DNA from: Aciduliprofundum sp. MAR08-339
Lineage (GTDB): Archaea; Thermoplasmatota; Thermoplasmata; Thermoplasmatales; Aciduliprofundaceae
DNA: 64,000 nucleotides
NCBI RefSeq assembly: GCF_000327505.1
Contig: NC_019942.1
Span: 868,001 to 932,000 of the forward strand
Direction of reading: 5' to 3'
The translations under genes were made by a program, and so were the position numbers. Below are positions 12,937 through 15,002 of this stretch, one piece after another. The first letter of the stretch is position 1. Each line of letters begins with the position of its first letter. The notes under the pieces are model-generated. The model had not been told where the DNA came from. It saw only the letters and a list, made by a program, of their open reading frames with translations, and made no database searches.

Positions 12937-12945
12937 TTTATATAT
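12937..12945 (+). promoter_or_regulatory. TATA box for the HTH/radical-SAM operon
   Basis: TTTATATAT is centred 25 nt before the GTG at 12966, so transcription should begin at or next to the start codon. Confidence 0.6.
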
Positions 12946-12949
12946 TTCA

Positions 12950-12975
12950 CAACTTTCACTATTTTGTGAAAGTTG
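12950..12975. promoter_or_regulatory. Perfect 10-bp inverted repeat over the HTH gene start (candidate operator)
   Basis: CAACTTTCAC at 12950-12959 and its exact reverse complement GTGAAAGTTG at 12966-12975 are separated by six bases. The right arm contains the GTG start codon. TTTCAC also occurs once more just upstream at 12945-12950, overlapping the TATA box. The position between the TATA box and the first codons is what is expected for a repressor site; binding by the encoded HTH protein is inference. Confidence 0.6.
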
Positions 12976-13430
12976 AGAGCAGTGTTATAAGGAATGTTCG
13001 AGAATCACTGGCCAAGATATTTGATAAGGCAGGTATAAGGGAAGTTGATGCCAATGTGCTTGCCGAACTGCTGATCAGAGATAGGGATATGGATGTGCAG
13101 GAAATCGCAGAGAATCTTGGATACAGCTTATCCGGTGTTACTGGGAGTCTGCACAGATTAATGCGGTTGCACCTCATAGTGAGAAAGAAGGAGGGGAAGA
13201 GGTATCTGTACAGGTCTGAAAGTAATGTGCTCTCCGTATTTCTTCGCCTGCTGGAGGACATATACAACCATGATCTTCCAAGGGTCATGAGGTTGGTGAA
13301 GGAAAAGGTTGGTGACCTGAAGGGTGAGGAGGAGAGAATTGTAAGGGAACTGGATAAAAAACTGGAGAAGGCTGCTGAGTATTTGGGAACTCTCATCGAA
13401 CTCCTTGAGGATTACTCGGAGGTGGTGTGA
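12966..13430 (+). CDS. MarR/GbsR-like winged-helix transcriptional regulator
   Basis: 154-residue DNA-binding protein. Residues about 20-80 form a winged helix (AELLIRDRDMDVQEIAENLGYSL..., then LHRLMRLHLIVRKK and the wing GKRYLYRS), and the C-terminal half (about 90-154) is a long charged helix suited to dimerisation. It resembles the GbsR/DUF-type archaeal regulators. It starts with GTG inside a perfect inverted repeat, which suggests autoregulation. The stop codon is immediately followed by the ATG of the radical-SAM gene, so the two are cotranscribed and the regulator probably controls that enzyme. The ligand is unknown. Confidence 0.75.
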   Translation: MKVESSVIRNVRESLAKIFDKAGIREVDANVLAELLIRDRDMDVQEIAENLGYSLSGVTGSLHRLMRLHLIVRKKEGKRYLYRSESNVLSVFLRLLEDIYNHDLPRVMRLVKEKVGDLKGEEERIVRELDKKLEKAAEYLGTLIELLEDYSEVV

Positions 13431-15002
13431 ATGAGGATAGTGCTCACAGCGGATGAAACCTTAACAAGCACTTACAGGCATATACCACTATTGGATTTCT
13501 TGGGATGTGCGCCTATTGAGCGGGTACCTAAGCCAATTTACAATCTGCTGGACACGCAGGTTCCAGATGATAATGGTAGACTGACCTTTGCTCCCTATGG
13601 ACTTCGCAAGGTTGAAGCCTCTTTGCTCCGTGATGGATTCTCTCCCAGCGATGTTGTTGTGGCTCATCCTCTCCATGTTGAGAGATTCATAGACGAGAAA
13701 ACTACCATAGTTGGGATAAACACCATGGATCCCTATGGGCTGGGGCCCGTAACGATGATGTTCACAGATGGGGGTAAGCTAACATCGTACACTAAGTACA
13801 AATTCATATCACTTTTGAGGAGAATTAGAGATTATCGTGAAAGGAAGGGCCTTAAATTTAAGATAGAGGTTGGAGGCCCAGGTGCCTGGCAACTTGAAGC
13901 AAGGCCTAAGTTGACAGAAGAACTGGGCGTTGACCACGTGGTGATTGGAGAGACCGAGCATGTGATTGCAGACATTTTCAGGGATATTGAGTCGGGAAAT
14001 GCTGAGAAAATAATAACAATAAAAACCTGGCCAAAACTGGAGGAAATACCCAACATAGTCAATCCATCCTTTAAGGGAATGATAGAGGTCATGCGTGGCT
14101 GTGGCCGTGGATGCAGGTTCTGCTCTCCAAATTTAAGGACTGCAAGATTCTATCCAATTGAGAAGATTCTTGCGGAACTGGAGGTGAATGTCAGGGCGGG
14201 ACAAAAAACAGCATGGTTACACAGCGAGGACATATTCAACTATATGGTTGAGGACCGCAAGAATTTTTATCCCAATGAGGATGCGGTGATAGGTTTGTTT
14301 GAGGAGGTGCTGAAGAGGGTTGAGTATGCAAATCCAACCCACGGTACCGCTGCGGGAGCCTTGGCCGCACCCAGAATTCTGAAGAAGGTTGCAGAGTTAA
14401 ATCACGCAGGGCTGAATAAATGGGTGGGCATACAGGTGGGATTTGAAACGGCCTCTCCAGAGCTTATAAGGAAGATTGCAAACAACAAGATGAAGCCCTT
14501 CACTCCGGAGGAATGGCCATGGGTTTTGCTGAATGGAACATACGCATTTAACAAATTTTTCTGGTTTCCAGCGTACACCAGCATAGTGGGGCTTCCATGG
14601 GAAACAGAGGAGGATGAGATCGATACCGCTAGACTCATAATCACTATGGAGAAGAAACTCAGAGAAAAGCTGGGTGAGCAGGCGCATTTCACAGTCACGC
14701 CCTTAGCATTTGTGCCAATGGCTGCTCTGAAGGGAGAGGAAGGATTTGATGTTACGGAGAACCTAACCCCTGGAAGGGTTCTGCACATCTATCACGCGTG
14801 GAGGCATCTGGCCTGGGAGGTTGATCATGGATTGAAAAGGGTGACCAAGGGAAATCCAGCCTTTCTGCTCTTCTCTCCCCTGGCCAAATTCGGTTCAAGA
14901 ATGCTCGTGCACAGCATAAGGAAATGGGCACTAAAGCATGGGATAGATGTGGATAAGCCCCTGGAGCCCATGGACCTTAGAATTGAGGAAATTGAAATTT
15001 AA
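13431..15002 (+). CDS. Radical SAM protein with N-terminal B12-binding-like domain
   Basis: 523-residue protein. Residues 1-190 form an alpha/beta region resembling B12-binding domains of radical-SAM enzymes (APYGLRKVEASLL, VVVAHPLHVERF, GGPGAWQLE, VVIGETE) but with no DxHxxG cobalamin-ligand motif that I can see. The radical-SAM core begins at about 215 with the [4Fe-4S] triad Cys224-x3-Cys228-x2-Cys231. A C-terminal region follows with Trp- and His-rich segments. The family is conserved in methanogens and Thermococci and uncharacterised as far as I know. It directly follows its HTH regulator. Its 3' end shares TTAA with the oppositely oriented oxidoreductase gene. Confidence 0.8.
   Translation: MRIVLTADETLTSTYRHIPLLDFLGCAPIERVPKPIYNLLDTQVPDDNGRLTFAPYGLRKVEASLLRDGFSPSDVVVAHPLHVERFIDEKTTIVGINTMDPYGLGPVTMMFTDGGKLTSYTKYKFISLLRRIRDYRERKGLKFKIEVGGPGAWQLEARPKLTEELGVDHVVIGETEHVIADIFRDIESGNAEKIITIKTWPKLEEIPNIVNPSFKGMIEVMRGCGRGCRFCSPNLRTARFYPIEKILAELEVNVRAGQKTAWLHSEDIFNYMVEDRKNFYPNEDAVIGLFEEVLKRVEYANPTHGTAAGALAAPRILKKVAELNHAGLNKWVGIQVGFETASPELIRKIANNKMKPFTPEEWPWVLLNGTYAFNKFFWFPAYTSIVGLPWETEEDEIDTARLIITMEKKLREKLGEQAHFTVTPLAFVPMAALKGEEGFDVTENLTPGRVLHIYHAWRHLAWEVDHGLKRVTKGNPAFLLFSPLAKFGSRMLVHSIRKWALKHGIDVDKPLEPMDLRIEEIEI

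Follow-up and report, generated by a model that had tools for sequence, protein, structure and literature searches.

The described regulators that come closest to the one considered here are Mj223 and GbsR, OxsR of Haloferax, and the small archaeal HTH proteins Lrs14 and the Pyrococcus Lrp-like regulator. Mj223 and GbsR combine an N-terminal winged helix with long C-terminal helices; the accessible text of PMC6207618 presents Mj223 as a template of the GbsR/MarR type that is devoid of the aromatic-cage region; in osmostress, GbsR and OpuAR act as choline/glycine-betaine regulators. OxsR is a single TrmB-type winged helix which, according to the portions of PMC9426492 at hand, needs a conserved redox cysteine at its dimer interface. 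Like TrmBL2/3, it is described without a sugar-binding effector domain (available parts of PMC9426492 and PMC4158304). Autoregulation has been noted for Lrs14 and the Pyrococcus Lrp-like regulator (PMC4158304, excerpted text).

On the enzyme side, MgmA is a cobalamin-dependent radical-SAM glutamine methylase. In the methylthiotransferases MiaB and RimO, the N-terminal domain holds a second cluster, for which these enzymes carry three additional cysteines. With respect to tetraether lipids, Garcia et al. are said to have reported two GDGT-modifying proteins in 2024 and to have described a GMGT methylase. The lipid enzyme Gms harbours a SPASM domain with two auxiliary clusters, and Aciduliprofundum boonei, which makes GMGTs, possesses a homolog of Gms (both as stated in the accessible sections of PMC11186832).

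The locus under study lies in the window (the whole 64-kb stretch of DNA that was analysed), where a TATA-like element, TTTATATA (12937-12944, plus strand), is followed by a TTTCAC half-site (12945-12950, plus strand) and by an operator-like palindrome without strand, CAACTTTCAC-N6-GTGAAAGTTG (12950-12975). The latter is a perfect inverted repeat with 10-bp arms and a 6-bp spacer (TATTTT), the half-site lying 9 bp upstream of its left arm. The right arm begins with the GTG start codon (12966) of a gene for a 154-aa winged-helix (HTH) regulator (12966-13430, plus strand, stop included), whose stop codon (13428-13430) abuts, without a gap, the ATG (13431) of a gene for a 523-aa radical-SAM protein (13431-15002, plus strand). 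The sequence-only reading had described this layout (a perfect repeat over the GTG start, a TATA box before it and a gapless junction of the two genes), and each of these elements was found where it had been placed. A scan for bacterial-type promoters and terminators is unsuited to an archaeon, and no result from it was used.

The HTH protein narrowly exceeds the cut-off of the Pfam TrmB model (PF01978; 26.8 bits, cut-off 25.6) and stays below that of MarR_2 (21.2 of 27), CudC (25.2 of 218) and Lrs14 (34.4 of 90), as well as of the Sta1 and ArsR models. Its AlphaFold2 model (pLDDT 91.9) displays a winged helix followed by two long C-terminal helices (residues 88-153), the same arrangement as in Mj223 and GbsR, and Mj223 (PDB 1ku9) is the best solved structure (rank 1, E 2.7e-7, TM 0.69/0.70). 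Judged by this model, the protein is a GbsR/MarR-like winged helix; its scores for the MarR and CudC models set it apart from the osmostress regulators GbsR and OpuAR. The C-terminal sugar-binding effector domain of TrmB proper found no match in it. Like OxsR, it possesses a single TrmB-type winged helix; in contrast to OxsR, it contains no cysteine and therefore no thiol switch. It would likewise act on its own promoter, as Lrs14 and the Pyrococcus Lrp-like regulator do, with the difference that its gene comes first in an operon that also encodes a radical-SAM enzyme.

The existence of a perfect repeat is in itself unremarkable, since ten first-order Markov sequences yielded 0-2 repeats with arms of at least 10 and a spacer of at most 8 per 64 kb (mean 0.6), and the palindrome is the sole such repeat of the window. 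Therefore, the case rests on its position and conservation. With up to three mismatches, the palindrome has a single match in the window (0 expected), and it was found once in the 1.437-Mb single-contig genome. Its conservation was assessed in 13 promoters of orthologous HTH genes, excluding HTH genes that are cut by contig ends and so have no promoter (L036/G030, L037/G036); for G024, 39 bases upstream were all that was available. The core TTCAC-N6-RTGAA stands at the identical place in 12 of the 13, with the left arm exactly TTCAC at -11 to -7 in 12 and the right arm starting with GTGAA in ten and ATGAA in three; TTCAC-N6-GTGAA is exact in nine. A second conserved block, which covers the TATA-like element, extends from -33 to -19 (counted from the start); variable columns are those that separate TATA from the left arm and those upstream of -36. 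Pairing of bases 3-8 from the centre at -3.5 amounts to 66/78, the best of all centres tested, and was reached in none of 500 shuffles (largest 0.55 vs 0.85 observed), a result that overstates independence and represents no probability, since the promoters are related by descent. The third half-site, present in the window as had been stated, fared less well, being only partly conserved across relatives (exact TTTCAC in 3/13; G000, G009 and G113).

The palindrome also follows the regulator gene from locus to locus. Among ten HTH-bearing loci that were scored, seven carry a perfect site, two (with ATG starts) a site with one mismatch and one (L053) a site with two, this exception having kept the HTH gene while its left arm is replaced by ATCCTG. 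All 13 radical-SAM loci without the HTH gene are devoid of TTCAC-N6-GTGAA at fewer than two mismatches in 700 bp upstream (120 bp for L043); as L042/L043 and L049-L055/L059 are closely related among themselves, these represent fewer than 13 independent cases. One of the HTH-less loci (L033) represents a natural excision of the gene: over 626 bp upstream it aligns with L032 at 92%, while the stretch containing the HTH gene and its promoter is missing, and a search with an orthologous HTH found no copy elsewhere in its genome (G101). Across the compared loci, the palindrome is thus present with the HTH gene and absent without it. Its disappearance from close relatives had been named as a refuting outcome; with the core kept in 12 of the 13 orthologous promoters, the claim survives.

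These comparisons bear on the possibility that the palindrome is a by-product of chance and coding (GTG AAA being start and Lys) beside an unrelated promoter motif. Although the right arm is coding and about 0.6 such repeats are expected by chance, the non-coding left arm is exact in nearly all orthologous promoters while adjacent columns vary, and it is missing from all the HTH-less loci. Nor is it a general promoter element, as a crude scan of the window found TTCAC at -11 in only one of ten TATA-start pairs, that of the HTH promoter. A chance origin is hence regarded as very improbable.

With respect to the mode of action, the usual archaeal TATA spacing would have transcription begin at the start codon here or close to it. 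In the 13 promoters the TATA element lies about 21-29 bases upstream of the start codon; the left arm would therefore be untranscribed, and a DNA operator is preferred. The same spacing weighs against an RNA hairpin in a 5' leader that masks the start codon and controls translation: the repeat does span the start codon, as start-hiding hairpins do, but its left arm would fall outside the transcript, making this alternative quite unlikely. A dimer site at the palindrome would, furthermore, overlap the footprint of RNA polymerase. Repression by OxsR is associated with a motif located 3' of TATA (accessible text of PMC9426492), and the palindrome occupies such a position, downstream of TATA and over the start. 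The alternative that the HTH protein activates its own operon draws on the ability of archaeal winged-helix proteins to do both (for example, OxsR; same partial source), yet in view of the site's position it is considered unlikely.

A DNA operator serving repression is thus the preferred reading, and a putative local autorepressor acting over promoter and start is well supported by the comparative evidence. The two genes would form an archaeal operon, probably leaderless, under simple negative autoregulation: a winged-helix dimer would bind TTCAC-N6-GTGAA just downstream of TATA, over the presumed transcription start and start codon, and would block RNA polymerase at the regulator's own promoter, while the radical-SAM enzyme directly behind would follow the same control. 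An autoregulated operon had been proposed before, and this part gains from the conserved site and its absence from loci without the regulator; the accompanying idea of an enzyme level that is sensed finds no support, as no ligand or signal is visible, although some signal would presumably lift the repression.

The palindrome had also been offered as an opening to a wider regulon. Its single occurrence in the genome does not bear this out, and the HTH protein appears to be a single-target regulator. A genome-wide search for TTTCAC-N6-GTGAAA with at most one mismatch returned three places, against five for the backwards control; the two matches other than the operator (one inside the SPASM gene described below, one at 984397) are read as chance, and no regulon is claimed. 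Within the family, TTCAC-N6-GTGAAA is present in 12 of 18 genomes and stands at the HTH start in eight. Palindromes away from the HTH gene occur in G024, G055, G030, G009 and G045, and those at G009:C13:36057-36074 and G055:C127:5319-5336 lie away from any gene of this regulator type.

The enzyme scores 38.2 bits against the radical-SAM model PF04055 (cut-off 29.5) and falls below the cut-off of the B12-binding model PF02310 (16 of 32.1 bits). Its best NCBIfam model, TIGR04013, is far below cut-off (53.4 of 251), as is TIGR04014 (19.7 vs 360). The closest named matches stem from DHVE2/Aciduliprofundum MAGs, which assigns the window, from a heat-loving archaeon, to the Aciduliprofundum group of Thermoplasmatota; a plasmid tblastn search with the enzyme gave no match. 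Its structure model (pLDDT 89.9) best matches MgmA (9ccb; Z 23.5, rmsd 4.0, 366 aligned, residues 2-500), with which it shares the fold at 18% identity, followed by MiaB, RimO, AprD4 and OxsB; the N-terminal part matches MgmA, OxsB, CysS and TokK. Given these fold matches, the enzyme is class-B-like as modelled, and it lacks the additional clusters that characterise methylthiotransferases and SPASM enzymes. The only cysteines invariant among 38 relatives are C224, C228 and C231, all within the SAM motif (CX3CX2C, residues 224-231); the enzyme thus differs from MiaB and RimO in lacking their extra cysteines, and from Gms in lacking those of a SPASM domain or auxiliary clusters.

The arrangement of the operon had been taken as a clue to the substrate of the enzyme; such a clue comes instead from the gene neighbourhoods of relatives, not from the operator. 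The operon's surroundings in its own genome (uL16, DUF835, molybdopterin oxidoreductase) offer no such hint. Among relatives, the enzyme's gene adjoins genes for a SPASM radical-SAM protein and a B12-type radical-SAM protein: the order is HTH, SPASM, enzyme, B12-type in L040 and enzyme, SPASM, B12-type in L058, while L053 harbours the SPASM gene in pieces, the HTH gene and the enzyme's gene, with a UbiA prenyltransferase gene upstream. Across the order, a SPASM gene directly neighbours a B12-type gene in 24 of 29 rows (29 near-group SPASM rows at 50% identity or more, compared with 28 B12-type rows).

In the SPASM protein, about 120 residues precede the CX3CX2C motif and a SPASM domain is present, as is the case for Gms (PMC11186832, available portion). 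Its best NCBIfam score, heme b synthase, is below cut-off with a match that starts after the extra N-terminal part; it matches Tes weakly (7tol, 1.6e-12) and other SPASM enzymes better, and the gene in the window's own genome (G000:C1:376477-377901) encodes a SPASM-like row of 12 cysteines. The protein is named here Gms-like, not Gms, on the strength of its architecture and the literature statement. The B12-type protein matches MgmA, AprD4, TokK, OxsB and CysS; it (L067) may be a candidate for a ring synthase or for a methylase of GMGTs, and it is named by type only. As separate observations on the same genome, a radical-SAM gene of 524 aa that neighbours a geranylgeranyl-reductase-like FAD gene (L127; G000:C1:402000-404800) looks, by eye, like its Tes, and an 88-aa frame at G000:C1:603797-604015 corresponds to residues 383-455 of the B12-type protein (77%), a truncated extra copy.

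Since the enzyme's gene is thus linked in a few MAGs to a Gms-like neighbour, a role in tetraether-lipid modification, alongside the radical-SAM enzymes Gms, Tes and GrsA, is put at about even odds. The best overall explanation would accordingly combine a leaderless two-gene operon under negative autoregulation with a class-B-like radical-SAM enzyme that most likely acts on membrane-spanning ether lipids and belongs to a set of lipid radical-SAM units that each have their own regulator, all from one clan; this reading is assigned a probability of roughly 0.6. A credible competitor, held at somewhat under even odds, keeps the regulation of the enzyme by the HTH protein and replaces the lipid by tRNA, rRNA, a protein or a cofactor. 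It draws on the best fold matches (MgmA, a protein glutamine methylase, and MiaB, a tRNA enzyme), on some paralogues (34-41%) that adjoin genes resembling translation genes by eye, and on the neighbourhoods outside the DHVE2 group, where most orthologues have unremarkable neighbours and those of Bathyarchaeota and others show no evident lipid genes. Against it stand the three arrangements in which the enzyme is linked to the Gms-like/B12-type unit, and the regulator clan that it shares with this unit.

The extent of this clan was revealed by a profile search with the HTH protein, which returned 40 places in 24 of the 101 genomes of the order. On the same strand and within 3 kb of a radical-SAM gene of the enzyme's or the B12-type family lie 28 of them, and two more abut a SPASM gene, so that 30 of the 40 stand beside radical-SAM genes; as the 40 rows were compared with just 39 enzyme-family and 20 B12-type rows, mainly from HTH-bearing genomes, the true number of linked places could be slightly higher. 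Family f4 shows a different order, the HTH gene standing behind the SPASM/B12-type pair or ahead of a paralogue (34-36%) of the enzyme. The ten unlinked cases comprise G027, G016, G012:C27, G008:C36, G020:C24 and another five with weak scores (E 8e-5 or worse), among which four resemble ArsR; G027 is at a contig end, and its radical-SAM contig begins inside the apparent end of an HTH gene, while G016 and G012:C27 are each beside cation-efflux-like and S19e-like genes. Other winged-helix genes, one of PadR type, directly precede the enzyme's radical-SAM gene or its paralogues (L041:3492-3995, L025:2787-3185, L031:1121-1489), as if genes of this family repeatedly acquired adjacent regulators.

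The window's own genome carries a second operon of this kind (L133; G000:C1:375039-378302), in which the Gms-like SPASM gene and the B12-type gene (375039-377901) are headed by a distant clan member with 27% identity to the first HTH protein. Promoters of this second HTH type (n=12) are symmetric around -11.5 (57/72) and -2.5 (49/72), at the start, with a palindrome of the type TCTCA-N6-TGAGA, unlike that of the first; its best symmetry was reached in 0 of 500 shuffles, and it is degenerate in G000. Separate autoregulators would be expected to leave such a pattern, alike in layout and different in letters. In these promoters (L121-L126, L133-L136, L081), symmetry centres recur 9 bp apart (-11.5, -2.5, +6.5), and this spacing, together with the third half-site 9 bp upstream in some promoters of the first type, hints at more than one dimer. 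Taken jointly, an undescribed winged-helix clan may serve as dedicated, self-limiting switches for tetraether-lipid radical-SAM enzymes, the present enzyme being a new one: each copy, before or behind its own lipid unit, would read a palindrome of its own, placed over the start codon of its own gene, and the divergence of the palindromes (TTCAC-N6-GTGAA vs TCTCA-N6-TGAGA) would allow different membrane-lipid changes to be tuned separately. This extended proposal is tentative and judged rather less probable than even.

Tetraether lipid composition is the basis of archaeal acid and heat tolerance and of palaeotemperature proxies, and the setting of membrane-spanning lipid composition is known at the enzyme level (Tes, Grs and Gms). 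A dedicated transcriptional regulator of Tes, Grs or Gms was not found in the literature searched, including the accessible part of PMC10465181. The mechanism itself is of no new kind; what appears new from these genome comparisons, and worth pursuing, is the clan-wide link of small winged-helix proteins to radical-SAM units. If the proposal is true, the operon would unite a regulator, the operator that it reads and a candidate new lipid enzyme in a single testable piece; for the Gms-like unit, the regulator clan would do the same.
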